DNA of 64,000 nt, from contig JAYKXP010000171.1 in NCBI GenBank assembly GCA_037176845.1, positions 25,973-89,972 on the forward strand, given 5' to 3'. Both the position numbers and the translations under genes were made by a program. The notes below the pieces were generated by a model that worked only from the letters and a program-made list of their open reading frames with translations, had not been told where the DNA came from and did not search any database. This DNA comes from Paramarasmius palmivorus. Lineage: Eukaryota; Basidiomycota; Agaricomycetes; Agaricales; Marasmiaceae. Positions 14,501 to 64,000 of this stretch are shown here, one piece after another. The stretch's first letter is position 1, and each line of letters begins with the position of its first letter.

Positions 14501-15196
14501 GTATGTTAGTAAAACACGACAAAAGAGTAGGGGACAGTGAGCACTTACTGGTACACCCACAAACTCGACTCAACCACCGATTCTACCATACGCATGCCCA
14601 TTCTTGTATCCAATACTCTACCGTCACCCCATGAACCACCATGAGCGCGTCCGTGACTTGGTGGAATGGTCGACACAAGGCCCGATAGCTGGCACGAGGA
14701 AACGGAGTGGGTTTAACTGCGTAGCCTTGGGATTCTCAGTTGCGGTAAAAGGGCCTATACGGAGAAGTAAGCTGGGATTATTGCGAAGGCGTCATTCCTG
14801 TGGAATCTTGCGAGGTGGGGACGGGAAAGGTGTAGGGTAAAGACTAGGATGCAAGGGTAGAGTACAGGCGACGGGACGCGTTATAATGCGAGTGGGAGGA
14901 AGAAAAGGGATGTATATAGCCCATATTGCGGAATGAGAGAAGCTGAAGCCTAGGTCGAAGTGGTTGAGGCTTTGTGGATGGTACTGTCGTGGAGTAATTG
15001 GGAACGGGTCGACGTAGTGTCGAGGAGCGCGTTTGAAAAGGTGACCGAAAGATGTTGGGGTATGCATGGATTACAATACATCTTCGAAGGTTTATATGGG
15101 GTTTTGGGGCTTGTACTTGGGTAGCTACAGGAGAGCCATGAACGATGGTGAAAAACGTCGAGAATAGTGAACATACCGACAGTCGTACCTCTTGAG
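11526..15196 (-). pseudogene. Left part of the decayed tandem gene-family array
   Basis: Two repeat units on the - strand. Homologous introns mark them: 11,723-11,785 (GTGAGT...CTGACTGAT...CAG) and 14,489-14,548 (GTAAGT...TACTAAC...CAG), 2.76 kb apart. The exon at 11,526-11,722 is open (APIQFKKFQLEHKPRK...). The stretch 11,990-13,990 is clearly homologous to 60,130-61,990, for example the - strand peptides CLETFIKFIPSQTRF here and CLETFINFIISQTRF there. Frames are broken in most exons and no domain is recognised, so I call it a family of pseudogenes. The right edge ends exactly in TACCTCTTGAG at 15,186-15,196, where the 27.6-kb insertion begins. Confidence 0.6.
15186..15196. repeat. Left 11-bp flank repeat of the large insertion (probable TSD)
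   Basis: TACCTCTTGAG, repeated at 42,842-42,852. The uninterrupted paralogue at 63,284-63,294 has the sequence once, with matching flanks on both sides. Confidence 0.7.
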
Positions 15197-15250
15197 TAGT
15201 CTTGAAACAATCCTTTATAACAGGACGCTCCAGGTATTCACTCGTTATAA

Positions 15251-15322
15251 AGTCTTGGACGGTTGTCATGATTTTTGTGACCTGTGGTGCGGACCTCGAA
15301 AATCTGACAGCGGCGGGACGGC
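15251..15322 (+). repeat. Left imperfect terminal inverted repeat of the large insertion
   Basis: Pairs with 42,770-42,841 in inverted orientation, about 75% identical with two short gaps; the inner part TGACAGCGGC and GGGACGGC is exact. Confidence 0.65.
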
Positions 15323-15524
15323 AACCGGAAATATCGCTGAATTAGGCAGGATACACCGAGAAGCCGTTCTGCGTTGTTCTCGTAGTATATCCTACAAACT
15401 TTCCGCAAACATCACTGTCTTGTTTCCTCGATTGAATGGTGTTTGAGATACGGATGATCCAAGCTCGTACGAGAACAACGGAGCTCACCCAGTCTCCGAA
15501 GTGTTTATGTCGGAACTTTTAAAT

Positions 15525-15760
15525 CTTGCCGATAAGGGCTGATAAGGCCCATAAGAGAATCGGGTCTTATCAGGCATGATAATGTTAGTCAACTTATCAT
15601 AATCATCCATGGCGCCAATCTTATGAGCGCTTATAACATAGGGCGGTAATAGGATAGCGCTGGCGCTTATAAGATCATGGCTTATCACATCAAAATTGAT
15701 GCGAGCCTCTTATCGTGCTCGCACCTGAGGGGCTCGAACGAAGGGCCTTATCATAGCCAC
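15525..15760. repeat. Cluster of TTATCA/TGATAA motifs near the left end of the insertion
   Basis: At least six TTATCA or GATAAG words plus several CTTATA/CATAAG variants in about 230 bp, including GCCCATAAG followed closely by CTTATCAGGC. The same pair of words, in the same order, recurs near 40,540-40,563. Such clusters resemble the subterminal motif arrays bound by some DNA transposases; that role is inferred. Confidence 0.45.
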
Positions 15761-15888
15761 CATTATGACAGTGGTTTTGATATGTGGGAGGCAGTCCAGC
15801 TGGCCCACCTTCTCTATATGTGTTTTAGAACATCAACTTAATATATACCGACATCTTTGGCCAAATAAAATCTTTCCTTGGTTGCTTT

Positions 15889-16213
15889 TGTCAGAGTTTT
15901 AGATTGAACTCTGTTAGCAGCGATAGCGCAGGTAAGCGCGATATAAACGATAGCAGATGACCAGAGGCCTTGAGATAGAACCAAGAGATGAACTGATGTG
16001 ATTCAATTATTGTAGGGTTTTCTGTCTAGCTTTTATACATGAGTAAGGATGAAAGATAAACCTAAAAGTACAAGTATAGACGCGATAGAAATAACTGTGG
16101 CTTTGTGTGGCTTTCTGTAAGTAAGTGGGTTAGACAAAATGATACGAGCGGGTCAAGAGATATTCTAAGATGTGGCATGCATATGTAAATATAAACGTTC
16201 TATATTTCCAACA
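15889..16213 (-). repeat. 3' LTR (relative to the - strand element)
   Basis: 325 bp, appears identical to 19,927-20,251. On the - strand it starts TGTTGGAAATATAG and ends CTCTGACA. Confidence 0.92.
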
Positions 16214-16225
16214 CTCCCCCTCAAA
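16214..16225 (-). other. Polypurine tract of the copia-type element
   Basis: On the - strand TTTGAGGGGGAG directly precedes the 3' LTR (TGTTGG...), the expected place and composition for plus-strand priming. Confidence 0.7.
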
Positions 16226-16257
16226 CCTTGGATTATGGAATGATCTGAGGTTTGACT

Positions 16258-19200
16258 CTAATCCAGATTGTCGAAGTATTCTCCGTGGAGGTTGCGATGT
16301 TTGACCCGGCGGAGTCTGGACTCATTGCGATTCTTCTTGATGTTTCTGTAGTTGCGAGTGTTGTCGTTGTTGGTGTGATTGGATACCCGCGGTTTCTTTA
16401 CTGTCCTGGTGCCTGATGATTGTCCTGCGATAATGTCCTTCTTTCCAGTTCGAATAGCTTCCTGGAATTTTACTCTTCTATGTCCACCTCTGGCCGATGT
16501 TTCTCCGTTATCGATCTGCATCTCATCAATCTTCGTAATGATCTCGTTGATTTTTCGATTGATTGTGCCTAATCCTTTTCCATCTAGATCCATCTCGTCG
16601 ATTCCTTGGGTAACGTTGTCGATATCAGCTTCGAATTTGGGTTTTTGCTCCCCCTCAACGAGTGGGATCTGATCCGGTTCTGGTGTGGTAGGAAGTGATA
16701 TGAGTGCTGGCATTTCGGGTGAATCAGCCTCGACTAGGCTTGGGAAAGGGTCTCCTGGCTTGTGTTCCGTAGCCTCCAATGCATAGATACCGTCTTTCTT
16801 CGGTATATCCAAAATGCATTCCCAACCTTTGTGGATCCTGATGTTGTCGCCACTGAAAATGACTTCGTAACCGTCCTCGGTGAGCTTGCTGATGGATATC
16901 AATGTGTGTCTGAACTTCGGGACGAGTAGACAGTCGGCGAGTACGATCGTGTGCCACTGGAAATTGTTGGTGGTGTACACAGTACAGTTGCCTTTCTCGA
17001 CGGCGAATGTGGTTCCTTCAGGTGTGCCGATGGGTCTGTGAGTGATGGACTGGCGCTCGGTGATACCATTTCGATAGGGAGTCATGTGTGAGGATGCGGC
17101 GCTGTCGAATACAAATTTTACGACTCCTTCCTCCTCCTCGAACTTCTCTGTAGCCATCTGTGCACTATCCCTCTCTTCCTTTGCCTGTGCCCAAATATCA
17201 TTGTAGGCGGCGGCCACGTCTACGTGTTCCTTCTTGCCTGGCTCTTCGATCAACCACCTGCTAATGACCTTCTCCCCCATAAAGGTACGATTGGCACTGT
17301 TGTAGCACAATCGGCATACCCTATGATCGAGGGTGACATGCTCGAATCCTTCGTCTAGGAAGTCGCTGGCGGTCTGGACTACTCCAATGACGGTGCGATC
17401 ACCTGTCTTGGGTGTGTGGCAAGTACCGGCTTCGCAGTTGGGGTCATAGGTCTGATATCCGACGAAATAGTTATTGACAAGTTCGTCTTTGAGGGTGCGG
17501 TTGACGACTGGGGGACATGGCCAGCTTTCGCTTTCGTAGTAACCTTTCCAGCTGTTCTCGTTGTTGTACATGTCGATGGTAGAAGTTGAGGATGAGTTTA
17601 GAGATGAGGTTGCTTTGACAGCGGTAAATGGGATGAGTACTGATGATGCTGGTTCTCGATATTCCTCTGTGCTTTTATAGGAGTTTTGCTGGCAGTCTTG
17701 GAACTGTTCTGTTTCATCTTGTTGAGAATCCACTCGATCTTCTTTGCATATGATCGCTTTGGTATCAATTGGTGTCTGTAAATCGACCATTGTGGCCATC
17801 GTGGTGTGCATTTCCACGGCCATGTATGCTGTTTCCTTGGATTTCTCTTCAGTTTCCTCGGTTTTTCCGAATTCTTCATCGTAAAACCATTCTTTCGGTG
17901 GGTTGTACTGTTCCACTGCTCGGATTTCCCTGGCTAACCATGTGCCTTCTTCCCATATTTCTTCTTCCATGGCTTTAACAGCACTTTCTTTGGTACTGCT
18001 TGCCTTCTCTTTTCCTTTTCTCCATAATTGGCTATCTTTAGCTTGCTTGGACTTTTCTTTATCCTCGGATTCATCATCTGATTTCCTGGATTTCGGCTTT
18101 GTAGCACATTTTGCGGCGATATGCCCTTTTCCTTGACATCTGAAACATGTGATCTCTTTGCAATCTCTATCTCCGCCCTGACGATCATTAAATCTCCGGC
18201 CTCTTCCTCGGCTATTAAATCCTCGGCCTCTATTGTTGAAATGATCTCGGGAATAGTTGGCTTCCTCCTTCTTGACTTTTCCTCGGCGCATTGCCTGTCC
18301 ATTTGCTTCAGCTCGAATAGCAGCAATCAGCTTGTCAACAGTTAAATCCTTGTTTGATTCACTGTATACGGTCATGACAGCTGTGATTGTTGAATTCAAT
18401 GATTGGGGAACTGATGCAATTAATGCATTCTTGAACTGATCATCCGAAATAGTGATGTTTCGTGATGTGAGTTCATTTCGGATATTGAGGAGTTCGTCAA
18501 TATGTTCATTGACTTTGCCAATGTCGTAGCAAGATAGATTGTATAGCTTGCGTTCCAGGTGTGCTTCTGTCAAAGGATTCTTTGTGTCGTAATCCTTCTT
18601 TAATCCTGTCCATAATGCTTGTGATGACTTCGCATTTCGATATCTTCGAAGTATGGTGTCCGGCAATTTTCCAACAATTGCGTTCATAAGATCGGCATCT
18701 GCGTCTCCTTCTTCTGCAGTAGTCAGGTACTTCCCATACCCTATCGACTTTGCTGCAAGTTCTACACGCATTGCCCACATGCCCCAGTTTGAGCCATCGT
18801 CCTTTAACTTGGTACAGTCGTTAAATGCTTTGACTGCTTTAGACATGTTGTCTTCTTCTTCGTCTGAATCAAATGATTCTTCCTTTGGTGGTCTCTTGGG
18901 AGATGGTGTTCTCGGTTTGGGTTTGGGACCTATGCTGGACGATTCTGGTTGATCGTCCTTCTCTTCGTCGGCAGGTGTTCCTTTGTCTTTGTCAGATACA
19001 GGTTTATCAGTATCAGCTTCTGATTCCTGTTCTGATTCTCCTTTATCCTGCTCTTGTTCCTTTTCTAGGTCCTGTTCTTCTTTATCGGATTCTTCACCAA
19101 ATCCTGATCCTTGTTCGAACTCTTCAGCAAGTTCAGTTTCCTGATCAAACTCTTCAGCAAGTTTGATCTGCTCTTCAACAGTTTCTTCCTGTGAAGCTGA

Positions 19201-19743
19201 TGTTCCCGCTGGTGGGAATACTAATGGTTGTGGTTCTGGTACTGTTGTTCGTAGTACGTTTCCTCGAACTACTGTTTCGTTGTGATCGTCACAATCCCTA
19301 AAATTTCCAACTAATAACGCTTCCTTTGGAGTCCTGACTCGATTTCTTCTGTTTGGACACGGTTGTTCTTCGCAAAGTTCCCACTTCCGTTTGTTGAGAT
19401 CTAAGTAACAATCTCATAGTTCGTCGACGTTGAACTGATGTGGCCAATGAACACAGATTAAATCTGTTCGAAGTGTGGGTTGTGCGGAAGATGCTGGTGG
19501 CGTGTGCAATCCTCCAACTGGACTCTGTCTCCTAGAAGGTATACGCGATGGATTCCTCGATGGATGTGATGATATGCTTTGTTGCTGTCCCGATGGACTG
19601 CCTGTTCTACTTCCTACTGGTGTAGGTTGTCTGCTAGGATTCCTGCTAGGGTTCCTAGATCCTCGTAATATTTGTTCTGGGTCGAACGTTCCTGATACTG
19701 GGGTACCGCTTCTGGATTGATAACGGCTACCTCTATCGGACAT
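16258..19743 (-). pseudogene. copia-type Gag-protease ORF with an in-frame TGA
   Basis: Structural polyprotein of the retroelement. From the Met at 19,743 (MSDRGSRYQSRSG) one frame runs to the stop at 16,258, about 1,160 codons, broken only by TGA at 19,416-19,414 (after HQFNVDEL). The part after the stop can start at Met 18,846. Order: basic Arg/Ser-rich N-terminus; acidic Glu-rich linker; UBN2-type copia gag domain (about 18,846-18,250; SNWGMWAMRVELA, ALWTGLKKDY); CCHC zinc knuckle CFRCQGKGHIAAKC (about 18,150); protease motif VFDSAASSHMTP (about 17,110); GAG-pre-integrase-like HTLISISKLTEDGYEVIF; then a charged tail with no integrase. The tail ends next to the polypurine tract, so pol is genuinely missing rather than cut off by the window. 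Confidence 0.88.
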
Positions 19744-19911
19744 ACACTAGTCCAATAGTCCTTTGCTTTGGGTAGGGGATATTCCGGCGTCCCTGCTCGC
19801 CACTCGATGTATGATCTTGGTTCTTTGTCCTTGGGGATATTACGGCGTCCCAAACTCGCCACTATACCAATATGAAATCGGTATTACTCTGGTTCAGCTA
19901 AGGTTTATAGA

Positions 19912-19926
19912 CCGGGGCCCATAACC
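19912..19926 (-). other. Primer-binding site candidate resembling the initiator tRNA anticodon arm
   Basis: Directly inside the 5' LTR the - strand reads GGTTATGGGCCCCGG. GGTTATGGGCCC is complementary to a GGGCCCATAACC-type sequence, which looks like the anticodon arm of initiator Met-tRNA (CAT anticodon). That would imply half-tRNA priming, as known for Drosophila copia. The host's own initiator tRNA is not in the window, so this is inferred. Confidence 0.5.
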
Positions 19927-20251
19927 TGTCAGAGTTTTAGATTGAACTCTGTTAGCAGCGATAGCGCAGGTAAGCGCGATATAAACGATAGCAGATGACC
20001 AGAGGCCTTGAGATAGAACCAAGAGATGAACTGATGTGATTCAATTATTGTAGGGTTTTCTGTCTAGCTTTTATACATGAGTAAGGATGAAAGATAAACC
20101 TAAAAGTACAAGTATAGACGCGATAGAAATAACTGTGGCTTTGTGTGGCTTTCTGTAAGTAAGTGGGTTAGACAAAATGATACGAGCGGGTCAAGAGATA
20201 TTCTAAGATGTGGCATGCATATGTAAATATAAACGTTCTATATTTCCAACA
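19927..20251 (-). repeat. 5' LTR (relative to the - strand element)
   Basis: 325 bp, appears identical to 15,889-16,213. Followed on the + side by GCTTT, the target duplication. Confidence 0.92.
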
Positions 20252-20369
20252 GCTTTCTGGGCAAATACCGCCACCATTGTATCTATATCAGTATATTCTG
20301 ATTATTACATGCAAGAAGTCTCATTACATAGTCCAAGAAATCAGTCTAAGAATATCTAACCACCACGGA

Positions 20370-23300
20370 GACGTGCCTGAGTACAAGTGTTCCAGACTGG
20401 CCTTTCAGCTGGCTCTTGATCACGTTGACAACCCTTACCCTTGCTTCGAGCCACTCACTGAACTTCTTTGCGGGGCCTCAGAGGTACAGTGGTACCAACT
20501 TCGGTCCCATCAGAAGACAGAGGGTGTGCTGGTACATCCAAGTCTACAACAGTAGGAGTGGGCGGGGGTGTAGATGATGGTGTCCCTGGATCAGTTGTGA
20601 CTTCCACACTATCATCACGATGAATGATAGTGGTGGATGATGATGAAGCAGCGGAGGAAAATGACTGAGGGGTAGTACCAACAGTGGATGAAGAGGCAGC
20701 TGATTGAGATGGTGGCTGGCTCGGAGGTGCTGATGTGGAACTTGTAGTGGGCCCTGCGGCAGAAATACTGAGACCTAAGAGTCATGCTGTATGTTAGAAA
20801 CTTCAACTCAATCAGATCAAATTCAGTGTAGCGTATCTTGCTCAATCGCTGCCATCTGATCTCGAATGTCTGATAGATACTCTGAACATTCAAATGTTCC
20901 GAAGCGCTCACCACTTGATGTTGTGATTCTGCTGAAGACACGTTCATTATAGAAGCCCCTTAGACTCTGAGCCCAATTGGAATCGCAGCTGATCTGTGTA
21001 TTGATGATTTTTCGGAACTCCCAGAAGTTTTGCAAGTAGTTGATCTCAGACTGCCTGCCGATTTCAGTCCATTGTGAATCATTTGCAAAGAGAACTTGGA
21101 CCTGAATTGATGAGATGTCAATAACATACCCAGCATAATTAGACTGAACATAGACATACCATGATAGCAGCAAATGCAATACATGCGCTATTGATTTCGC
21201 GGACATTCCAAGGGTGACCCAGCGTCCCTGATGTGGCCTTCAGTGTTGCATTATCCAAAGATGATTCACCAAATAGAATCATGTGCAGGATCTGAGAATA
21301 ATCAGCATGAATCCAAAACACTAATAGATTGGGCACTTCACCTTTGCCATGTACTCGTTCATGAATAGACCAGTCGGCTCCTCATGTTGATCTGGACAAA
21401 AGATTGGAGAGAATGCGCTCTTCGGCTTGTGAGGAAAGCGAAGGAGCTTGATCATGACTTCACTTTTGCCTCGCTTGCTCGCTCACAGCAGAAGCTGGCC
21501 ACAGAGTGCTAGGGATGTTGAGGTCATGAAAGATTTGCGCGGCCTTCCCACGAACATTATTGAGGGCTGTCGCACGCTGTGCATTGACCTGCTTTCCAAA
21601 CTGGAAAGGAAACAGTAAGGATTAATGAATGGATCAACAAATCAGAAGACGCACGGCAGTTTGGAATCTCGGATATTCTGCTGCTAGGATGCAGAGTTCA
21701 CGATCACTCAGATACTCGTGTAATTCAAGAATCGCTCCGGCTATAAAGTTGGTATCGTCCTCATATTGGGCTGGAGCATTGGGGTGTGGGGCGTTCAGGT
21801 TCAGATACTGACCAAAGACGCCTGGATATATCCAAGGGCAAACGACTAAGCTGTACCTCTTTCCAAGAAAAACAACTTTGTCGTGATTGAACCTAGGGTC
21901 CGACTCGATGGTTTGACCCTTCTTGGTGCGACGACCATGCTTCTAGAGAGCTAGCTGGACAGCTGAGGTCGCTAGTTTTATTAAAAAGACTCCGAAGATT
22001 GTCACCACCCCTTTTACATTAATTGCCCAATATCTTCATGTGTAATCTCTAATTCAATTAGACATTTTTTTGGCCTGTAGGGGTATATACAGCACACCAT
22101 TTATAAAAGGGTGCGCTTTAGGGTCAGAAAAATATTCCCACGGACTCTGGGACCATTCTGGAGCGCTTTTTTGGGCGCTTTTTCAACAGGAAATTTATTC
22201 CCACCATCCAGGGCATTATCTGGGATGCTCCCTGCTCCGCTTTTGGCTTCCCAAAAAGGAAGGTGGTCTTCCAGGGCCTGGGAAACCATTTTAGGGCGCT
22301 TTTGGGCGCTTTTTTCAGCGCTTTTTTAACAGGAAAATTATTCCCACACCTGCTGGCATCATTTAGGTGCCTCCCTACTCCGCTTTTGGCTTCCCAAAAT
22401 GGAAGGTGGCCTTACCTCACTATTTTCCACCTGGAATCAAATCATTGGGGGGCTATTGGGGCATGCTGGGGGGCTATAAAAATCGCATTTTTGAGGGAAT
22501 ATGTTCTAATATGTTCTAAAAGCATGCCACTGCAATTGGGGGGCAGGGCAATGCAAAAAAAGCGGTCCAAATATGGTAATTCAGGAAAATGGCCTATTGG
22601 ATCTTGAGCTACAGGCCAGATATTGACATGGGGTAAGTTGGAGGACCTAGATACATCAAATACAAGCCTGGGGACACCCAATAGTACATATATTGGTGGG
22701 ATAATGGTGCTTAAATATCAAAAATACTGAAAATCTCCGAAATTGGGGGAATAAAATTACAGGATGGGATGTGGTGCAGCTGGGGCTTAGATATTATGAA
22801 TCAGAGATGATATATATGTTCCCTTGATGGGTTTATAATCCTGGAGAGCTGCCTATTTTTCCAGATTTATTACAGCTAAATTCGCTTTTTTTGGACATTG
22901 GTGATACTATACCACAGGGAATGATTGGGATGGGCTAATTCTTGTTCATAACCCACTATAGGGTGTATAGATGACGAATATATACTTGCCCAGACACTCC
23001 TGTATGTGCAACACCTTGTTTAATCCAATGTATTGTACAGTTATGTAATACTACCAGTAATCCATGAATAGCACCTCAGGGAGGCATCCCAGCACCAAGG
23101 GGAGTTCAGAATCGAGTTCAGGCACCCAAAATACACTTTCCTACTATGAAAGGACATTGTTTGAATACATCTGTATGTTGCTACATAAAAAATACATAAA
23201 AAATCGCATTTTTAGGGGTTTTTTTGTACTGGAGCATGGGGACTGCTCCTAAAATCACCAAAAATGAATGAGAGACCGTTCACTATGTATAGAACAGGAA

Positions 23301-25401
23301 TATCAATTGCCTGCATGAATCCCATGACAGGAATCCATATGCCAGACTAATCAATTCCTGCACAATTACAGAAAACATGTACTATGGATGTAGTATTGCA
23401 AGGAGTGATCTGGGGACTTGGGGAACCTCAAAATCGAATTCAGGATGAAAAATCAGTTAAGAATATATCCAAGGTTGAAGGAAATCCATCCACAATTGAC
23501 TTCAATATGCATACATCAAGTTAAATGCACAAGTATATGTGCAATATATGTTAACTATAAGCATAAAACTTGTCAGATACATATCTCAAGCTACAGTGAT
23601 TGGATTCCTTTCAACCTTGGATATATTCTTAACTGATTTTTCATCCTGAATTCGATTTTGAGGTTCCCCAAGTCCCCAGATCACTCCTTGCAATACTACA
23701 TCCATAGTACATGTTTTCTGTAATTGTGCAGGAATTGATTAGTCTGGCATATGGATTCCTGTCATGGGATTCATGCAGGCAATTGATATTCCTGTTCTAT
23801 ACATAGTGAACGGTCTCTCATTCATTTTTGGTGATTTTAGGAGCAGTCCCCATGCTCCAGTACAAAAAAACCCCTAAAAATGCGATTTTTTATGTATTTT
23901 TTATGTAGCAACATACAGATGTATTCAAACAATGTCCTTTCATAGTAGGAAAGTGTATTTTGGGTGCCTGAACTCGATTCTGAACTCCCCTTGGTGCTGG
24001 GATGCCTCCCTGAGGTGCTATTCATGGATTACTGGTAGTATTACATAACTGTACAATACATTGGATTAAACAAGGTGTTGCACATACAGGAGTGTCTGGG
24101 CAAGTATATATTCGTCATCTATACACCCTATAGTGGGTTATGAACAAGAATTAGCCCATCCCAATCATTCCCTGTGGTATAGTATCACCAATGTCCAAAA
24201 AAAGCGAATTTAGCTGTAATAAATCTGGAAAAATAGGCAGCTCTCCAGGATTATAAACCCATCAAGGGAACATATATATCATCTCTGATTCATAATATCT
24301 AAGCCCCAGCTGCACCACATCCCATCCTGTAATTTTATTCCCCCAATTTCGGAGATTTTCAGTATTTTTGATATTTAAGCACCATTATCCCACCAATATA
24401 TGTACTATTGGGTGTCCCCAGGCTTGTATTTGATGTATCTAGGTCCTCCAACTTACCCCATGTCAATATCTGGCCTGTAGCTCAAGATCCAATAGGCCAT
24501 TTTCCTGAATTACCATATTTGGACCGCTTTTTTTGCATTGCCCTGCCCCCCAATTGCAGTGGCATGCTTTTAGAACATATTAGAACATATTCCCTCAAAA
24601 ATGCGATTTTTATAGCCCCCCAGCATGCCCCAATAGCCCCCCAATGATTTGATTCCAGGTGGAAAATAGTGAGGTAAGGCCACCTTCCATTTTGGGAAGC
24701 CAAAAGCGGAGTAGGGAGGCACCTAAATGATGCCAGCAGGTGTGGGAATAATTTTCCTGTTAAAAAAGCGCTGAAAAAAGCGCCCAAAAGCGCCCTAAAA
24801 TGGTTTCCCAGGCCCTGGAAGACCACCTTCCTTTTTGGGAAGCCAAAAGCGGAGCAGGGAGCATCCCAGATAATGCCCTGGATGGTGGGAATAAATTTCC
24901 TGTTGAAAAAGCGCCCAAAAAAGCGCTCCAGAATGGTCCCAGAGTCCGTGGGAATATTTTTCTGACCCTAAAGCGCACCCTTTTATAAATGGTGTGCTGT
25001 ATATACCCCTACAGGCCAAAAAAATGTCTAATTGAATTAGAGATTACACATGAAGATATTGGGCAATTAATGTAAAAGGGGTGGTGACAATCTTCGGAGT
25101 CTTTTTAATAAAACTAGTGTCTACGGGTGAGCTGGACTCTGAGATCTGCGACGAGCTGCCGCAGCTTGTTCTCAGTAGTGCGTAAAATATCAATGTTACC
25201 AGTAAGGATGGCGATGATCTGCACTTGAGTCGGCGACTATCCAAGTCATTGATGAAAAAAGTGGTAACTTACTTTGTGGGCTTCAGCATTTGTGAGCTCA
25301 CCAGTAGTAGGCAGTGTGAATGGCGTGAGTACAACATTGGGCACACCATCCTCTTCTGCATCAGAGTCATTGGGGATTGGTTGAGGTGAAGAGGTTGACA
25401 T
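20370..25401 (-). pseudogene. Uncharacterised basidiomycete-family gene split by a palindromic element
   Basis: Start at 25,401 (MSTSSPQPIPNDSDAEEDGV), intron, then IIAILTGNIDILRTTENKLRQLV up to 25,118. The palindrome 21,972-25,117 follows, and the coding sense resumes at 21,971 (KHGRRTKKGQTIESDPRF...). Downstream segments include LGKRYSLVVCPWIYPGVFG, VRGKAAQIFHDLNIPSTLWP, ACIAFAAIMVQVLFANDSQW and FWEFRKIINTQ. A Ser/Thr/Pro-rich tail lies at about 20,770-20,510, ending near a GTGAGT donor at about 20,480. The block pattern resembles a family common in Agaricomycete genomes that I cannot name with confidence; function unknown. A TAG lies just inside the right side of the break. It is divergent from the helicase gene, with about 250 bp between starts. 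Confidence 0.5.
21972..25117. mobile_element. Near-perfect 3.15-kb palindrome (foldback-like element)
   Basis: Arms 21,972-23,479 and 23,610-25,117 (1,508 bp each) are exact reverse complements in every segment I compared, around a loop of about 130 bp that still pairs weakly. Termini read CTAGTTTTATTAAAAAG. There is no transposase; the ORFs in it are mirror pairs of low-complexity frames. Each arm holds a direct duplication of about 143-bp period (about 22,155-22,420: GGCGCTTTT, AACAGGAAA, TTTTGGCTTCCC). No clear target duplication was found. It interrupts the - strand gene at 20.4-25.4 kb. Long arms and absence of genes fit foldback-type non-autonomous DNA elements. Confidence 0.9.
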
Positions 25402-25469
25402 GGACAGTGAGATCTTGAGATGCGAAGGGTAACGATTATCATCTGTGGCAACGACATAGTCTCCTGTAA

Positions 25470-25521
25470 GCAGACGGTATACCCTTTTTTGTGGTGAGGT
25501 GAGGGCGGGTATACCGTCTGC
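25470..25521. repeat. 15-bp perfect inverted repeat in the divergent promoter region
   Basis: GCAGACGGTATACCC (25,470-25,484) and GGGTATACCGTCTGC (25,507-25,521), 22-nt spacer. It lies between the - strand start at 25,401 and the helicase start at about 25,652. It could be a binding site for a dimeric regulator shared by both genes, or the ends of a tiny inserted element. Confidence 0.75.
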
Positions 25522-25651
25522 TATCAAAACCGCCCCGACTCGGGACCTCTCATCCGAGACACACGTGACATTCCCACGACACACAACGCGCCCCTAAGTA
25601 GTTTTTGCAAATAATGTATCGATAACTTATCAACGTGTTTTTCAAATAAAA

Positions 25652-27663: not shown

Positions 27664-27740
27664 TATCATGGTATGTGGCACAGCATTGCAAAAGACGTCA
27701 AACTAAGCTCTGATTATTGTAGCGACTGTAATATACTGTT

Positions 27741-30713: not shown

Positions 30714-30714
30714 A

Positions 30715-33435: not shown

Positions 33436-33444
33436 GTTCATGTA

Positions 33445-34212
33445 TCAGTGAGAACCATACAGGTGCTCGCATGGAAGCATAACTGCATCGCCGTAAGACC
33501 AGTGTAGTTCATGCTTGAGAAACCAGAAGAACTTGTCCTTCTTCTGCTGTGCTGCAGTGTACACGATTTCGTGCCGCTCAGTTTTATTCCCCGGTGGAAT
33601 AGATACATCAACAAAAACACGGATGTCTGGAAAGGAGCGAATGTTAGGGGATAGTTGTGGGTGCGACATGCGTTCTTTGAGGGAAAATGGAAGAATTGGT
33701 CGTGTTTCAGGAGGAGATGGTGTGGATAGGGTGGGTTGGGGGCTTTCATAGGCATAGATCTGCGAGGATGAGCTGCCGGGGGTTGAAGTACCAAACGTTG
33801 GCACAAACCCCGGTTGAGCGGCAAAAACAGGCACAGGCTTGCCCACAGGGTTCGAGATAGGTATCTCCGACTTCTTTCGACGCTTTCGTGATGGGTTACG
33901 GGCCAACTCTGAAGGTGGTTCATTTTGATCACTGTTATGTGCTCTTTTGGCTCGGGCTCCAGCTTTGGCTGAGATTGGGGTATATGGGGTATTTGGAGCC
34001 GCTTCATGAATAAAGGAGAGTGGTGTGATGGCTGGCTGAGTATGTTCATGCTCTGTTTGGTGTTTGTTCTTAGATTTGGTAGGTGAATTGTGAACGGTGG
34101 AATGAATGAGCGGGACAGGTCTTTCAGACGGATTTTGGGGTTGTGAAGTCGAGTTTAGTGTATTATGATGTGGATATGATACAGAGAATGGGTCTAAAGA
34201 GAGTGGGGACAT
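33445..34212 (-). CDS. Proline/serine-rich ORF, possibly the displaced 5' end of the DUF6589-type gene
   Basis: 255-codon open frame starting MSPLSLDPFSVSYPHH. The first about 170 residues are low-complexity (Pro, Ser, Thr) with a nuclear-localisation-like SRKRRKKSE. The last about 70 (FPDIRVFVDVSIPPGN...KKDKFFWFLKHELHWSYGDAV) look like a folded domain. It ends ten bases before the second palindrome and points toward the DUF6589 exons on the other side. A GTATGG donor at about 33,462 and a CTGATGCGAG acceptor at about 30,704 could make the palindrome part of an intron, but that pairing shifts frame. A separate small gene is equally possible. Confidence 0.45.
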   Translation of the reverse strand: MSPLSLDPFSVSYPHHNTLNSTSQPQNPSERPVPLIHSTVHNSPTKSKNKHQTEHEHTQPAITPLSFIHEAAPNTPYTPISAKAGARAKRAHNSDQNEPPSELARNPSRKRRKKSEIPISNPVGKPVPVFAAQPGFVPTFGTSTPGSSSSQIYAYESPQPTLSTPSPPETRPILPFSLKERMSHPQLSPNIRSFPDIRVFVDVSIPPGNKTERHEIVYTAAQQKKDKFFWFLKHELHWSYGDAVMLPCEHLYGSH

Positions 34213-36806
34213 AGTTTAGGTGAAATAAATTAACGTGTGTCGGACGTCGAGGTGAAAAGAGAGAAGCGTGCGCAATCCGTTTTGGGAACAGTGTCCGTGG
34301 GAATGGGAAAAATCTCTCATCGAGGACCTCCCCGCTCCCACGCGCGTTTGATATCAGACTAGCAACGACATGCACTTATAAAGTTATGCTTTGCAACTAT
34401 CCGTGTCATGTTTTCCACACCAGGCTACGTACAATTACATCAAACAACTTGTAGCACCTATACTAATCTGGTAATCTGAACGAACTATCAGCCGAGGTCG
34501 AGATGTGGTAAAAGAGTGACTCACAGATTATGTGTAACCTGGCCAGTGTTTCTTTATCCGAAGAAACATATCAGCGTCAAGTACATCAACAACTAACCGA
34601 TCCTGATCTAAAGGATCCTCGGATGCTGCTACTACTAATGCCCCCCGAATAATGGAATGTACCGAAATGAAATGCTTCGGACCATCCAGCTGGAGCCTCA
34701 ACAATCCCAAGTCCTTGTTGCTTCATGTTCGACGAGCCGAGCTGACAACTTTATAGGACTGTACAAACGCAACTGGATACACTTCGTTATCAGCGTGGCA
34801 AGTGAACAGATGTTGAAGCTGAGCAAAAGCTGGCAAGCTTCCTGTGTTATACAAGCAAAAGTCAAAACGTGGAGCCTTGTTGAAGCTTGGATTACAACGC
34901 AAGTAGTCGGTGGTTAGCTTCCACATTTCGTATGATTCATAGTTTACTTTGAGGTACTGGAATGGTGTTGAATGGGTTCAATTGGTGTAAGGCCGTCTAG
35001 AGACAACAAAACACAACTCAACCTCTTTTGTGTGAGGATGGCTCGGCGTTGGCAAAGGTTCCGCACGGTAGTAAGATCAAGAAACAATGTATTATCACTA
35101 TAGACACTCTAGTACTCGATCTAGACCAACGAACAACAAAGGTGCGTGGTATAGAGAAAGGTATAAGGTGTATATTCGTATCCAACGAACACAGAAATCA
35201 ACAAAATGCAACAGGATAGTGCCCAAGTGCAGCTAGCCTCTTCAATATCCAAACTGGATCGATTCCAAACAAGTTCAACAATGACCAATATATGGCAATG
35301 GGAGGCCCTCAGTCCTCAGTGCCAAAACAATAAGTAAGGTGGCCCTCTGTCCACAATACTTCAGTTACAATAGATAAGGAGGCCCTCTGTCCTCAGTACC
35401 TCAACTTAGGTGGGAGTCCCTAGTACTCCAAACCTCGGTGGTCAAGTCAAATCCCGTCTAGACGCAACTCAGTACGTTCTATTCAAGAGACTACTGTACG
35501 CTTATCACAGCTATACAAGTAGCAAATCACTGACTCTGTGTCAGGTGGGGTATATTCTTAAATATTCTCTGAAGTCAAGTTCCAAAGTCGTTGATTGCTC
35601 TGTGCTATCTGACAGTGGGGGGATCTACTTGCTTGCCTTTTCGTATCGAAATGGGCCAGCTTATATACCCTCTAGCTGTCCTATTTACCCATAATCTACA
35701 GATACATACTTCTAGCTATGATTCTGATGGCTCGCTGCCCATACAAGGTATAGAACTACTTAAGAAGGAAATGAAATATTCTTTTTAGACAATCTTTCGT
35801 CCATATTCTGGGTTTATTCGCATTTTGGTCCTGAAAGCAGTTCCAAATATTTGGCTAGCTCCACGTCGGAAATCGCTCGGTGGACTATCCTTCTTCCTTG
35901 CGCTGACTCACTCTTGCTAGACTGCATGGTACATAGCTGTTGAGCGGAGACGGCTCTCCTTGGTATCGGATATCGTCAGGAACTGCCTAGACATCTTCCC
36001 TTCGAGTCCCTCCCTTAGAGTCTATTCTTCTATATTCTTCTAGGTTCAAGAATGCGTAATTCTATCACCATTCCTAGCTAGCACTTCGTCTAGCCAGGGG
36101 AAAGGTACGGTCTCTCCTCTGAGATATAATTCTCTGGTTGGTTTCGGATCTACACCTTTCGGCGATGAGTCCGAAATGTCCTGGGCAAGTAACTCGCTTG
36201 TAGTAAGCGGCTAGCGTAAAAACCCTAAAACCTTGCTTGCTTATCAAGTCGATCTTCGGCCGTCTAGCTTCGGATCTCGTCGATTTTACTAAGCTATGCT
36301 GAGAGCTTCGGATTAATCCAAGCTGCAACACGCGCGCTTCCTCCTAGAGCGGAAGATCCTCTTTCCATCATATCCTGCCAGCGTCTAGACTGGTCAGTCA
36401 ACAATGTGTCTCTACGCCTATGTGTCTATTCTGTGCCAAGTTCAAATCCCCTTGGTCGCAGACATTATTCAAGGTCTCTAGTCGCAACAACTCTTCCAGA
36501 TCAGTTATATAGCCTCATAAGAAGTCTATAGCCAATTCCATAGCGTTTCTATAGATGACACGACAACTGTCTTTCTAGTATAGACAGTCCTACAGTTTTC
36601 AGACACATCTAGCATGCATGGCTAAGTCCCCAGCTACCATAGCCTGATCATACGATCCATGAACAAGCATATAGACAGCTAGTTACTCTTTGTTAGAGCC
36701 TAAGTCCGCTTTCACTAGCTGCTCGGGCTCACACTAGTGCTCTTGTTTCCCTTATCAAGTGTATTAAAACTTGTTGAAGGCAAGAATATTCATCTAGATA
36801 CGCGAT
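34213..36806. other. Non-coding spacer, AT-rich, many CTAG and TCTAG words
   Basis: No gene supported; frames are short and unlike known proteins. Short tandem repeats lie at 35,301-35,429. Recurrent TCTAGA/GTCTAG words and several TATA-like stretches suggest old LTR or DNA-element debris, but I found no paired termini. Confidence 0.4.
35301..35429. repeat. Imperfect short tandem repeat
   Basis: Three to four units of about 35-42 bp, each starting GGAGGCCCTC, GTGGCCCTCTG, GAGGCCCTCTG or GGAGTCCCTAG and containing CTCAGTRCC-like and AATA(A/G)RTAAGG-like words. Confidence 0.65.
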
Positions 36807-39800
36807 TTATATTTTGGACCATATCAGCGTGATCTAAAAAATGTTGGTAACTAGGTTTGGAGAGTTAAGAACATATTCATACCTCCTCATGTGGCATGTA
36901 TTGAATCCATTGGTTACCTGGAAGCGGGATGCTATTGGCCTGCAAGGATTTTGACATAAAATCTGCGAGGTCAATTTGGAACTGATCACCCTCTTGTTGT
37001 GAAAGAGAGTGGAAATTAGTGAATGACTTGAAGGAGAGTGCTTTCAGCTGAGACCTGATGGTAAAGTGAATGCCACCCAATGATGCAGTGCCTTCGGTAT
37101 CAGTTGATGAGTCAATTTTGTCATCATTAAGAGCCATGAGGTGTTTTTGATAGTCCTCAAGCTCATCGATACCATCACGGATGAGGTCCGCGATGACAAA
37201 CTGGTGATTTTTTTCGTGAAATCTAAACACACACCCATCAATAATTACACCAAATGATTTAAAGGACCATTACTACACAACACACCTGTTCTGAAGTATC
37301 CTTGAAATTAGTTTGGCGCTGATAAATGTTCCGAAGAGGTCCATGCATCTTTTCATTTGGCTTAGTGCTATAGTTCCGAAGCACACCCTTCAGCTGGATG
37401 TTGTCGAAAAGGTGTTGAAACGGTCTTCATGGCACTTTGGGATATGGTCGTATTTCTGGGCCTTGATCAGTGATTTTCAAGGATACACAATGACCACAAC
37501 CTACCTCAATTGCTGATGAGAGCATAGGAATATATTCCTTTCCGATAGCCAGTGTATCCGATGTATGAACATGTAAGCCACCGTACATAATCACGTTGAG
37601 ATAGATACGCGTGCACTTGAGCAGTTGGTAACCAGCGCGATCAACATTTTCCTCTATCACACCCTGCGCTGCGAACAGAAATAGCTTGATTTCTAGATGA
37701 GCTGCGAGGATTCAGAAGCTATGATCAAAGTTTGATACACCTTTGATATATCACGGTGCTTGGACCCATCATTAAATGATATCTTTGTGACACCATCGAA
37801 GTGGTTAAGGTCACGCCAATGAGGAAAAGTGATGAATCTGCCAGTAAAGTCAGTAGAATTTCTATTCATATTCAAGAGGACATTACCGCTGGTCAATTTT
37901 TGCCTCATAATGACAACCTAGCTTGCTGAGATGTAGCTTTAACTGTGGGAATAAATGGGCACCCCAAAGCCCACTATCCGCAAAGTGTAGATCATCAAAT
38001 GAGACCGCGCGATATGGATCAAAGTTAGCAAATTGAAGGAACATATTCTATGTTAAAGATCAGACTAGTATGAGTGTACTCGATGATGAAAACATACCAT
38101 CACAGGTCGCATACCGTGTGTTCGTAATTCATCCTCTTGATCCCCCTTCCGGGCCATTTTGTCCACCTTTTGCATGATATTCTGAGTGTTCTGAGGCGTT
38201 CGGGGGTCCCATCTTCCTGTCAGATCTGAGAGTTGATCCATTGGAACCATACATTTTGGGCATGCCTTCTTTCCTTTCAGTCCTCAAATTAGACACATAA
38301 TACACCTATAGCAGTCAGTAATTTGAATGTGGCACTTATGAACACTTGCTGCTCTTCATAGTTGGCTGAAAGAACATAAAGGATAGGATAAATAAAACGT
38401 ATTACCCTGTCACCACATCTAATCATACAACCGACACAGCTGTACTCTAGAAGAGACTCAAACATTTTTAATGCCGACTCGTGCCACACAACACCCTTGA
38501 AATCAGCAAATCCTTTTTTACCCGAGTGCTCTGCGTCTTCGGGAACCTGTATATCAGTAGCAATGAACATGATTGAACCCTTTTGATAAAGTGTATAACT
38601 CACAACTGGATGCCATCTGATAACTCAGCCACCACTGAGCCCATTGGTATTTCGCAAATCGGATGGGACATTGCCAATCTGAGCAATGACTGGATACCCC
38701 TTTGCTGTACCAAATGTAGATAGCTTGTTCTTATCTGCATAAATGATAAGAAACAAAGATTTGGCATTGCTACCAAGTGATGGGTCTGAATTTAGAGTAG
38801 TCTGACATACATTGGTCAGTCTAGAAGGAGTACAAGGACAATTCTAATATTCATACCTGAATATCCCACCAAAGATCACTTGTCCACAGTTCAGTGATAA
38901 ACCGTTCCCAACAGCTACCATCAAACCGATAATTCCGACACGTATCCCATTCCATCTGTGAGGCTATTTTCGGGTCCTTCAAAACCTCTTCAATCCAGTC
39001 CCATGTCGGGTGCAAAAACACATCAAACCGGTGAGCCTCGCCATCAAGGGACGGCGAAATCTCTGTTCGGTGCCACTGATTGATTTATGAGTGACTGCTC
39101 TTGTTCTAAACATGGCAAATAAAATACCTTTGCTGTTTTCTCAGACGCCACATCCCAGATCTTTTCGAGCTGGTCGTGGGTGCTAAAACTCAGCTTCCCA
39201 CTCCCATACGATGCCCGCTCAATGAGATTTAGTAATCACTCTGTTTGTTTCTTGTTCATCGCACAATCAAGTGCAAGCTCTGCAACTTCAAAATCAAACC
39301 GTGTTGGAAACAGTCTCCACGGCTCCTTGTTGATAGGCTCTCTGTATTCTTCTTCCTGCTGGAAACCATAGTCACCAAACCGTTTCTGTTCTGTACCACG
39401 ACCACTAGCAGGGTGATACTCTGTCTTGATGTCATCAATCTCAGTTTGGATTATCACGGGTCCTGTTTCGCTGAGACCTTAAACAAGTATGAGTGACGAG
39501 AAATATCAAAGATGAGAGAACCCATACCAGAATCATGGTTGGGTAGATCAAAATTCATGGTTCCATGTTGGAAACGGGCTGTCTCTACTTCACACTAAGT
39601 CCGGTTGACTCGAGGAGATATTGGGTGAACATACCAATATTTGATGACATGCTCTGGCTTTGTGACAACCCCGCGCCCATTATTTCAACTAGTAGATAAA
39701 TTTACATCAATATGGGATAGTGGAATGAGTTTGACTATACATACTGGTTCCTGGACTATTTGTCGGAGGTCACAACAGCTCTTGTTGTACCCTGAAATTC

Positions 39801-39928
39801 AGGTTGGCCTCTTTGTCACGCTGTTTCTTCAGGCAACTTTTCTCGTGATTCTTGATTGGTGCCCCCTCCGTATATGGTTGTCCGCATGACGAGCATTTGA
39901 CCTTTCGCTTCATCCAGGGATTTGACAT
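36807..39928 (-). pseudogene. Plavaka-like (CACTA-related) transposase, in-frame TGA
   Basis: Multi-exon - strand gene. The start at 39,928 gives MSNPWMKRKVKCSSCGQPY with a C-x2-C...H-x4-C zinc-binding site. Blocks in order: SLDGEAHRFDVFLHPTWDW (about 39,040); FLIIYADKNKLSTFGTAKGYPVIAQ with NVPSDLRNTNGL (about 38,750-38,650); PEDAEHSGKKGFADFKGVVWH (about 38,550); RFIYPILYVLSANYEEQ (about 38,390); SFDDLHFADSGLWG (about 37,990); FITFPHWRDLNHFDGVTKISF (about 37,830); the 3' exon GGIHFTIRSQLKALSF and end ITLIWSKI after an intron (stop at 36,807). This order matches Plavaka-type transposases of Agaricomycetes. The frame contains TGA at 38,637-38,635, where relatives usually have Arg (GG-R-VVGW-like). 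I could not identify its terminal repeats. Confidence 0.75.
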
Positions 39929-40469
39929 GGTGCACAAGACAAAAAGAATAATTGGGAAGATAAATATGCAGAGAGAATTAAGGCAAGGAAATGCGACACC
40001 TTCATTTATATACGGAACATTTGCAGCCAACGAATACGATAGTTCAGCTCAGTATACGTCATCCACAGTTCAGCTATGCAGCTGGAGCAGCGATATTCCA
40101 GTTTAAATGACATACTTCCGTGAGCTTTCAGCACCAAGCCTGATAGATCCAGATTTGTCACTATTGGTGGTCATACCGTATGAAATGAACGCAATACTGA
40201 TTTCAATGTTGATGTACATGATGGATCTCTATGTACAGGCTGTGAATGAGATTATCAAGGAGCATCAGGGCTGTAGAAGCGGTTAATAGTATCCAAGCAC
40301 GCAGAGATATCTAAACTGACCTTACAGCATGCAAATTGATCCAGAGCAGCCCCAAATAGTTTCCTCTCTCGTCCTAATCCCCTGGTATACACATTGCAAA
40401 CAATCTGTTTGCCATAGAAGACTGCGGCGATGAAGGGAGGTGGTGGTTGAAGATTTCATGGCTGATAAT

Positions 40470-40565
40470 CAGCTGATAATCGGCAAGCCTCGATGTAACA
40501 GTCCGATAACCAGCTGATGATAGACTGATAACCAGCCCATAAGCGCCTACCTCTTATCAGGCCGA
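40470..40565. repeat. Cluster of TGATAA/TTATCA motifs near the right end of the insertion
   Basis: Six GATAAT, GATAAC or TTATCA words in about 100 bp, ending GCCCATAAG...CTTATCAGGC as in the cluster at 15,525-15,760. Confidence 0.45.
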
Positions 40566-42769
40566 ATTGGAATCTCTGACATAAGGATTTGAGGACAATT
40601 TGAGGAAACAATGCATGCCACAACAACACTGGCTACCAGTCAGAATGCTGCACCTTTCCAATGATGTTAGGAGCGTCTTCATCAACATCTATGCTCCAGG
40701 TCCAGGTGCATTGTCAGACCTCCGTCTTTATTAACCTGACAAACAGACCAATCTACTTAGCTCAACAGTTCGCTACCCTACATTTCAGTGTTATATGAGT
40801 GCATGCCAGTTCCCCGTCATCTTAGGCCTTCACTTCGAGCCACCATACGCTCCGCAGAATGCAATTTTTTTGACACTCGAGTTGCGTTAGACTGTTCCAG
40901 GCACGGAGATCATCACAACGATTCACAATCCCTCAGGCCTCAAGCCACGTCGATGATACGCCTGACTTTAATCACTTCTTTTTCGAACGCAAATACGCTA
41001 GTTTTGCACGTTATCATTGTTGCATAAACACATAATGGTTATAGAAGGACTAGTATGAGCCCTGAATAGCTAGTCATTGGACGGAAGGTGTTTTAGGTGG
41101 TTATATTAGTGGATCCTGGTACATGGTACGCCCCACATGGGTATCTGGCCACCACTTTTACTTCTACCAGTGGTTGTCGAAGTGCAATCACCTCCTGAGA
41201 ACTGTAGGGAGAAGGTCCTTAAGTGAATTCACTACGGACTACGCCTAGATCACCTACCGGATGCACCAAAGGGATTCTTACAAGTTAATTTACCCCTTCA
41301 TACACCCAGAAGAGTTATACTGGCTCGGGCATCACTCGGGACTGATGGCAGAGGGGGAAACTGATCAGAAATCACCGATGCCGGATACGGCAAGGGTCTA
41401 GAGACCTGTCGGCCGAAGTGGAACCTATTGATCGGAGCGGAGGCAAAGCTGTTCAAACCGTTGTTATGGTGGCGGAAGCGGATTCCCTCTGATATACCTT
41501 ATTGGAACACGTCCACATGGAGTGGATAAGAAAATTTAGAGGCGGTGTTATGTGGAGGAACGGTGTTGAGCGATGAGGAGCTCGGGAGGACCCTGCCAGG
41601 CCTCCGATTGGTGGAAAAGCGCTTGGCGCATGGAAAAGAAAATTTTATAAAGGCTAAACGCCTACCCGTCGGCCAGTATTCAACTCCTGTACCTTAAAAC
41701 AGAGTGTTACCACTCGCTTGTCACGCTATTTGCACCATATATGGACGTTGTGACCTATAGATTTCCCTGATATGTATATTTTCTCGTTGTATCTCTCTCC
41801 CGACTCTGTTTCATCCCTTTTCCGTCTCGTTCCGCAGTTATTCCGACTCAGATTACCTATTATTTCAGTTTATTCACCTTGGACAGTATAAAAAGGACAC
41901 CAAATGTACGGGGACCGGAGAGGATTCTGCCCCCCACTTGCACGTTACACGTTGTATGTGGTTATCGTACGAATAGATTGCTATTGTCCAATCAGAACTC
42001 TGCCCAAGTCAGGCCCTAGCCTTATTGAGAAGACTAGTTGAGATCTTACTGCAGACAAGAACTTGAGAGGTCGCGATAAAGACCAAATTGTTGGCTTTGT
42101 GTATTGCTCTACACGTCTCCTATTAGTGAAACTTTATACTAGTTCGTCTTGGTGGCGTTCTGGAAGTGTTTTAACCAGTTGGGTTACACTTTAGCATCGT
42201 AGAGAAGGCCTCGGTTTTGGTGGCTGAGCTTCCTTGCTTGCATGCTTTATAGAAGACAGTTTTGGTGGCTGTTTTCCGGCAGTTGTGCTGTAGTTTTACC
42301 TTAGAGAGAGTCAGATCACTCGAGGCAGTTTAGATCAAACCAAGATCAGCTTCATATAGCCCTTGGTGCCTTATTTCCTAGCTTATAGAAGCAAGGACGA
42401 CCCTATTACGCATCTATACAGGTGTACTTTCCTAGAACTTCGACGAATAGAAGTGATTTTACCCCTCTTGAGACCAAGCTTGAGTAGATATCTCTAAGCA
42501 CGGCAACTCTGATCACGCCGAACCACACTTGCACAACTACACCACAGTAGAGTGCTTTTGTACACTGAGAGCAGTCATAGTATTAGGTGATTTCACCAAA
42601 ACTAAGTGGTATTATCGAAAAGGATGTGATTTCACGCGGTAATGATATGGTGAATAGATATTGGAGAAAACGAAGACGGCCAGAGGACGAGAGAACGAGT
42701 GCTAACGAAATTTTCGAAAGAGAGATGTAATGATGACAAGCGTCAGGAATGTACCTACAGCCATTGCTG
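40566..42769. other. Non-coding stretch, LTR-like around 41.5-42.0 kb
   Basis: No gene supported. Two promoter-like TATAAA sites (about 41,648 and 41,889), each followed by GC-richer sequence, and a TGTTATG-type start near 41,546 look like a solo LTR. No matching target duplication was found, so this stays a suggestion. TTTTGGTGGCTG is repeated near 42,213 and 42,260. Confidence 0.3.
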
Positions 42770-42841
42770 GCCGTCCCATGCCGCTGTCAAAATTCAGACT
42801 CCAGACCACACGTATCGAAAATGCCAACAACTGTCCAAGCT
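42770..42841 (-). repeat. Right imperfect terminal inverted repeat of the large insertion
   Basis: Inverted match of 15,251-15,322. It abuts the 11-bp direct repeat at 42,842. Confidence 0.65.
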
Positions 42842-42852
42842 TACCTCTTGAG
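42842..42852. repeat. Right 11-bp flank repeat of the large insertion (probable TSD)
   Basis: TACCTCTTGAG, identical to 15,186-15,196. Array sequence resumes directly after it. Confidence 0.7.
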
Positions 42853-63200: not shown

Positions 63201-63440
63201 GGCGTTTTGGGGCTTGCTATTGCCTAGGAGGAGCGATGAGTGACGGCAAAAAACGGTGAGAGTAGTTAACATACCGACAGTCGTACCTCTTGAGGTATAT
63301 CTTGTATTCGATTTTTATGAGCTTCTGAAAGGTATGTTAGATATAAGAGCAGTATACAGAAAGTTTGAACACACCTTTCTATGCTTACCGAGATGAACGC
63401 GTTGAACGAGGTGGTCGTTGTGAGAAGAGAAGCGCTGGCG
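60291..63440 (-). pseudogene. Array unit; contains the uninterrupted paralogue of the insertion site
   Basis: Best match to the unit at 12.1-15.2 kb. The diagnostic intron is at 62,599-62,657 (GTAAGTGCTC...TTTTACTGAC...CTCCAG). At its right end 63,260-63,430 reads through TACCTCTTGAG without interruption and continues into the sequence found at 42,842 onward. The exon peptide IYTFEDVFMDSPKAFHHLFKRAP is open near 63,200, but later frames are broken. Confidence 0.6.
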
Positions 63441-64000
63441 GCAGGTAGGCCTGCACAACTGAGTTTAAAATTGGCGCAGCTTGTCTTATGATCGAGCGTC
63501 CTGTTTGGGTGACGTGTGAACTTTCGAAATAGTCATATAAGGAAGGTGGTTTTTGCGGAGGTATTTTCTGACAGCTCTGAGCTCATGCAGATGACGTTCA
63601 AGAACCTCCATGAATTCACAGTGAGCTACGTGTTTTTCGCACTCTGAGATCTGAGCTATCATCCCAGCTCGGTAGGAGTACAAAAGCTACCGCTTTAGGT
63701 CTCAAATTCAAAGCCTGTGAACTGAGAACTTGAACCCAGACTTCGAGGACGCTCCCGGGGCTCCGTTTCATGCTCCGAGTCGCGGCAAGCGCTCAGTGAG
63801 TTGTCAGTGAGTCAATTTCTCTGAAAACTAAGTGATCCTTGGCTAAAAACTTCAGGAAATCCTCATGCTCATACAATTGCTGCATGGGACACTGATTTGA
63901 AGGGAAAAATAGTCAACAAACGAATTCATGGCTAGCGTTGACTCGGCGTTGAGTAGAAAATCTACGGAAGCAAAGTTGTCCTGTCAGATCCAACATCCGA
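63441..64000. other. Unrecognised right edge
   Basis: No supportable gene in the last 560 bases; array similarity fades after about 63,440. Confidence 0.4.

Follow-up and report, generated by a model that had tools for sequence, protein, structure and literature searches.

A 27.6-kb insertion of nested transposons in Paramarasmius palmivorus, and a hairpin module that occurs at one end of helicase- and DUF6589-encoding transposons and alone in the genome

The window analysed here is a stretch of 64,000 nucleotides (nt) from the basidiomycete Paramarasmius palmivorus (assembly GCA_037176845.1, contig JAYKXP010000171.1, positions 25,973 to 89,972). It contains a 27.6-kb insertion in an array, made up of a short founding element (E0), a transposon encoding a RecQ-like helicase and a DUF6589 protein, a PlavakaA-like transposon (N1), a 1,661-bp element (N2), a long terminal repeat (LTR) element, two palindromic elements and a high-copy repeat (Table 1). 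Both E0 and the helicase + DUF6589 transposon carry a hairpin module at one end only, outside the terminal inverted repeat (TIR), and such modules also occur alone in the same genome; it is with these that the present report is mainly concerned.

Table 1. Features of the 27.6-kb insertion (positions in the window; TSD, target site duplication; ORF, open reading frame)
Feature	Position	Strand	Evidence
TSD of 9 bp, left copy	15188..15196		CCTCTTGAG; single copy in the paralogous empty site at ~63,286
E0 piece 1 (left end, hairpin module, left TIR)	15197..15507	+	87-92% identical to L024-L027
E0 hairpin module (55 nt, TSD to TIR)	15197..15251	+	stops where the TIR starts
E0 left TIR	15252..15322	+	76% over 71 bp to right TIRs of three copies; own alignment
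N1, PlavakaA-like, with all nested in it	15508..40581		termini TGTCGGA..TCTGACA, TA duplication, PF18759
LTR element, copia-type gag	15889..20251	-	LTRs 325/325 identical; duplication GCTTT
Palindromic (foldback-type) element 1	21961..25129		8-bp duplication AGCTGGAC
Helicase + DUF6589 transposon (AcademH-like), 8,905 bp including palindromic element 2	25457..34361		9-bp duplication GCAACGACA; ends TAGTCT..AGACTA
Hairpin module of the helicase + DUF6589 transposon, 59 nt	25457..25515	+	z -6.49; borders left TIR
RecQ-like helicase reading frame (C-terminal part)	26014..27426	+	Helicase_C; closest solved relatives RecQ and BLM
DUF6589 reading frames (three adjacent ORFs), putative transposase	27741..30684	-	PF20231 E 1e-51 and 4e-44 on two of three
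Palindromic element 2, inside the helicase + DUF6589 transposon	30686..33465		7-bp duplication CTCGCAT; absent from the C50 relative
High-copy 1.86-kb repeat	34969..36826		42 further match rows, 84-99% identical (40 of 65 candidates scored)
E0 piece 2	40584..40953	+	93-95% identical to L024-L027
N2, 1,661-bp element	40954..42614		TCGA duplication; termini TGATAC../..GTATTA
E0 piece 3 (right TIR, right end ..CTTA)	42619..42843	+	86-89% identical to L024-L027
TSD of 9 bp, right copy	42844..42852		CCTCTTGAG; matches left copy

The insertion and its empty site, both claimed in the original prediction, are real. The borders (15186-15196 and 42842-42852) both read TACCTCTTGAG, and an uninterrupted paralogue in the array (~63,140-63,446) holds this 11-mer once, near 63,286; in a script alignment the joined left and right flanks aligned to the paralogue with no gap at the junction. 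Because the flanks are only 92% (right, 156 bp) and 71% (left, 937 bp) identical to it, the empty site is, to judge from these identities, an old paralogue and not an allele. A six-frame Pfam scan of the array between 59,500 and 63,500 gave no match. The 11 bp had been taken for the duplication itself, which was ruled out by the ends of relatives: six of these (L024-L029) end in CTTA or CCTA, followed by their own 7- to 9-bp duplications. The TA at 42842-42843 therefore forms the end of the element, matching a TA of the target by coincidence, and the true TSD is the 9-bp sequence CCTCTTGAG.

Genome searches yielded 40 matches to the left border (40 of 47 candidates scored) and seven to the right border. 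At four places besides the window both borders were found in full, about 0.95 kb apart, and these represent uninterrupted elements of 952-972 bp (L024-L027, on contigs C77, C62, C1 and C25). Inside the insertion they match the window only at 15,195-15,507, 40,581-40,953 and 42,615-42,843; the window copy is therefore a 906-bp non-autonomous element, E0, which was inserted into the array with a 9-bp TSD and split by N1 and N2, and the size of 27.6 kb was reached through later nested insertions into it. In six other E0-type copies the TSD has a length of 9 bp (two copies), 8 bp (three) or 7 bp (one). The TIRs described at the ends of the insertion are also genuine, as the left TIR of the window has 76% identity over 71 bp with the right TIRs of L024, L026 and L027, and the two ends of the window copy align with each other.

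Two alternatives had been proposed for the origin of this structure, a very large mobile unit or a nested composite that began as a TIR element. The latter is borne out by the uninterrupted 952-972 bp copies and by separate TSDs in six of the seven delimited inserted units (for the 1.86-kb repeat a duplication was looked for and not found). Starship giant elements are known from Ascomycota, and the insertion resembles them in size range and in carrying several genes between its borders. A single duplication around the whole insertion, with TIRs at its ends, is likewise what one giant 27.6-kb element, with helicase, DUF6589, Plavaka and palindromes as cargo, would display; however, the short uninterrupted copies and the separate duplications rule out a Starship-like element moving as one unit. 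Moreover, the left end of N1, the helicase element, the 1.86-kb repeat and the palindrome all have relatives that stand alone elsewhere, and no listed match in the searches with the first three spans more than one unit, which leaves the giant element with a negligible probability. The predicted helicase, DUF6589 protein, Plavaka transposase and two palindromes are indeed all present, as confirmed by domain matches and by the arms of the palindromes, but they belong to separate nested elements and not to one gene set of one element. The supposed giant thus resolves into an ordinary series of nested transposons. The unusual part lies in the structural inequality of the transposon ends, only one of which has a hairpin module beyond its inverted repeat, and in 28 well-flanked lone modules.

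Several further elements share the terminal features of E0. TAG..CTA ends (TAG..TTA in E0) and 9-bp duplications are common to E0, the transposon at 25457-34361 (of which a related copy is present on C50), an element on C22 and five relatives of 1,338-1,400 bp located on C29 (two), C70, C72 and C102, each bordered by a 9-bp duplication. The C22 element (6,394 bp, L031:2946-9339; duplication TTGTCATTC) contains convergent genes for a DUF6589 protein and a DEAD/Helicase_C protein (DEAD E 1.7e-11, Helicase_C E 6e-10), the solved relatives of the latter being eIF4A and DHH1 (weak matches). By these features E0 belongs to this helicase + DUF6589 (AcademH-like) transposon group as a non-autonomous member.

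The 54 bp to the left of the left TIR, which the original prediction had left unexplained, can now be identified as a 55-nt one-sided hairpin module that has many lone copies in the genome. The module is common to E0, the C22 element and the five 1,338-1,400-bp relatives, while the helicase + DUF6589 transposon of the window is built alike, starting with TAGTCT and having a subterminal stem and a 9-bp duplication, but its hairpin sequence is unrelated. It is placed at one end only, between the TSD and the TIR, and has a length of 55-59 nt; at the other end just TA precedes the TIR (E0 of the window, C22 element, window helicase + DUF6589 element). The left TIR starts directly after the module (after 55 nt in the C22 element and 59 nt in the window helicase element) and can be aligned with the right end beyond TA. 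By inspection, the stem sequences vary between subfamilies and the loop is near-constant; folding z-scores were -5.54 for the C22 element and -6.49 for the window helicase element. With respect to the convergent genes the module occupies opposite ends: in the C22 element it is at the DUF6589 end, in the transposon at 25457-34361 at the helicase end.

None of the 40 scored matches (of 47 candidates) to the left 300 nt of the C22 element represented a core lacking the module: every match started at position 1-4, and 26 of them stopped at 38-57. A Helitron-like reading of the one-sided hairpin was set aside, since a target duplication is present and no Rep-type domain was found in a scan of some ORFs, the ORFs of the C22 element, the minus-strand frames between 33,458 and 40,581 and the plus-strand frames between 20,252 and 27,500.

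With up to three mismatches, the loop pattern matched the genome at 125 places, compared with 17 for the reversed pattern; part of these matches were listed, and flanks were fetched for part of those. This gave 70 occurrences (L032, which overlaps L031, was left out), reduced to 61 by removing five without a recognisable start and four duplicate loci. An exact duplication of at least 7 bases within 45 nt was detected in 20 of the 61 (shuffled mean 0.44, maximum 3 in 1000). In 20 occurrences the module is followed by the core and in 41 it is alone (L073 and L083, which look like copies of one site, were counted apart). At 22 of the 41 lone sites the flanking 9-mers match at 8 or 9 of 9 positions (shuffled mean 0.63, maximum 5 in 500), and at nine of the sites the match is complete (mean 0.22, maximum 3). 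For the second, unrelated hairpin family 15 places were fetched, leaving 11 after the exclusion of one without a clear start and three duplicates; here six modules are flanked by 9-mers matching at 8 or 9 positions (shuffled mean 0.64, maximum 4 in 2000), five of the 11 at all nine. The shuffles behind 22/41 and 6/11 include chance self-pairings, by which the control is raised. The well-flanked lone modules of the two families total 28.

Joined flanks of 25 sites (19 lone modules, six full elements) were also used as queries, with 40 of 49 candidates scored, and empty paralogues were found. All seven that were read lack the insertion, six of them corresponding to the lone modules L037, L082 and L087 and one, 100% identical over 140 bp, to a full element; in the lone-module paralogues on C250 and C111 the target bases have partly diverged. 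Two weaker paralogues (C248, C42) fall outside these seven. Identical hairpin sites were observed on different contigs of the 68.3-Mb assembly (L045/L046/L089, L087/L088 and L058/L069), which suggests segmental duplication or uncollapsed haplotypes. On C56 a module of the second family (L100) adjoins a right-end match (C56:49679-49758), apparently forming a short internal-deletion derivative with both ends.

The outer end of the 22 well-flanked lone modules is fixed, and the inner end, counted from the end of the loop, lies at 9 (four modules), 8 (five), 7 (three), 6 (two), 5 (one), 3 (two), 2 (three), 1 (one) or -2 (one), where 9 is the TIR border. Seven of the eight inner ends at 7-8 are readable as 9, given a shared base or an 8-bp duplication. 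None of the 22 extends past the TIR border, although the scan would have admitted 4 nt more. Among the six well-flanked modules of the second family, three (L091, L093, L095) end at the border. Four of the 22 (L041, L064, L087, L090) retain 2-3 right-terminal bases and the remaining 18 show no trace of the right end, so that an interpretation as miniature inverted-repeat transposable elements, which require two termini, fails. Lone right ends were absent among four matches of the C22 type and seven of the E0 type.

We favour, with some reserve, the view that the lone modules are scars of cut-and-paste excision with a long one-sided stagger. The transposase would cut the two strands at different places, namely the outer border and the TIR border, resulting in a stagger of about 2 nt at the right end and of 55-59 nt at the end with the hairpin. 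As the module would stay with the moving strand, new insertions would carry it. The donor break would keep it as well, and its sealing to the right duplication by end joining would create the scar. The hairpin may serve to keep both cut sites together, and its opening may be aided by the helicase of the element.

In a rather unlikely alternative, only the hairpin end is joined to the target, copying or transfer halts at the hairpin, and a piece of 44-59 nt is sealed in with a normal duplication. Such one-ended insertion agrees with the fixed outer end, the variable inner end within the 3' arm and the intact duplications, as well as with the finding of hairpin ends as the only lone kind in two of three right-end searches; however, a stalled copy does not demand the TIR border as its inner limit, and the right-terminal bases kept in four lone modules also speak against it. 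We consider it improbable that the modules arose by abortive gap repair, in which complete excision is followed by refilling from a sister copy, which stalls at the hairpin and is joined through microhomology to the right duplication. The hairpin is a natural stall point, and internal deletions keep both duplications and sometimes right-terminal bases, but stops would then be expected in the core too, and 26 of the 40 matches to the C22 left end stop at 38-57. The other 14 run into the core, and seven of these (E0-type) end there only because their core is too divergent to align.

A number of observations weigh against excision scars as the origin of the lone modules, or against parts of the proposed mechanism. 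Only four of the 22 modules end strictly at the TIR border; allowing a shared base or an 8-bp duplication gives, in our own reading, up to 11. Convincing duplications are lacking at 19 of the 41 lone sites and at five of the 11 in the second family, and one of the 19 (L053) shares three more core bases (GTC) beyond the border. For the window helicase element, two of six right-end matches (C72 and C40, 73% identical) are not paired with a left end, and one of the 40 left-border matches (C19:497718) covers the core only. For E0 and the third subfamily the hairpin is energetically weak (z -0.98 and -1.05, respectively). A full element and a lone module at one and the same site were not found among the 25 joined flanks (40 of 49 candidates scored). 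Finally, the role of DUF6589 as a transposase is putative, drawn from conservation and linkage.

The nearest precedent for a long stagger is the Drosophila P element, with 17-nt staggered cleavage, an 8-bp TSD and a donor break mended by end joining or homology (PMC7776569). The likeness is one of working and not of kinship: the P element has a different transposase and a stagger that is equal at both ends and lies within the TIRs, and no hairpin module is mentioned for it. In a more specific form, which we advance tentatively and place somewhat below an even chance, the DUF6589 + helicase transposase would space its strand cuts 55-59 nt apart by means of the hairpin at one end, leaving scars, or, more boldly, would insert the naked 44-59-nt hairpin itself as a very small one-ended mobile DNA. 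If these are true scars, each lone module records one jump and the jumps of a fungal DNA-transposon group can be counted from an assembly; a plasmid assay could then address how a little-studied group of transposases cleaves DNA, and DUF6589, a domain of unknown function, would gain one.

A search for relatives of the DUF6589 protein returned 59 (8,000 candidates scored); those with a named organism are presumably all Agaricomycetes. In an alignment of 35 relatives D337 and D508 are conserved in at least 90% and E708 and E711 are invariant, which makes these four residues candidates, and candidates only, for a catalytic role. A Pfam scan detected DUF6589 in 35/35, with otherwise scattered weak matches (best E 0.0043, in one member); a sequence search for a solved relative gave a single chance-level match (E 0.49), and literature searches on DUF6589, alone or with transposon, found nothing.

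Elements of the AcademH type encode a helicase and generate 9-10-bp TSDs (PMC10045372); they are reported to be low-copy in Basidiomycota (PMC10799480), and widespread putative non-autonomous Academ elements are mentioned for the relative Marasmius oreades (PMC8290104). The C22 and window elements both possess a helicase and a 9-bp TSD and, judged by helicase and duplication length, fit an AcademH-like assignment; as a candidate transposase only DUF6589 was detected. They differ in the one-sided hairpin module outside the TIR and in the lone modules, which are absent from the portions of the AcademH accounts seen. The literature searched (titles and abstract starts, the founding AcademH paper not being covered) contained no report of a hairpin module in AcademH.

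The largest unit nested in E0 is N1, which holds the LTR element, palindromic element 1, the 1.86-kb repeat and the helicase + DUF6589 transposon, with palindromic element 2 inside the latter. PF18759 (Plavaka transposase) was identified on its minus strand at about 38.34-38.76 kb (43.7 bits, cut-off 26.3), as a partial match covering 112-233 of 325. PlavakaA elements have 2-bp TSDs and TGT..ACA termini (PMC12730594), and N1 shares with them the transposase domain, the 2-bp TSD (TA) and the termini; it differs in being broken and loaded with five other elements. The interval of N1 marks its outer limits; the stretches between the nested units may include sequence other than Plavaka.

The single long ORF of the LTR element matches copia-type gag and Pol_BBD only, and the element is probably a recent, non-autonomous insertion. 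The two palindromes, which had been predicted, were confirmed, with arms of 1,557 nt (99%) and 770 nt (98%), and a genome search (40 of 191 candidates scored) listed 39 further places with the palindromic element. The arms within a copy are 98-99% complementary, yet the two copies are 85-91% alike; the arms therefore seem to be kept equal within each copy.

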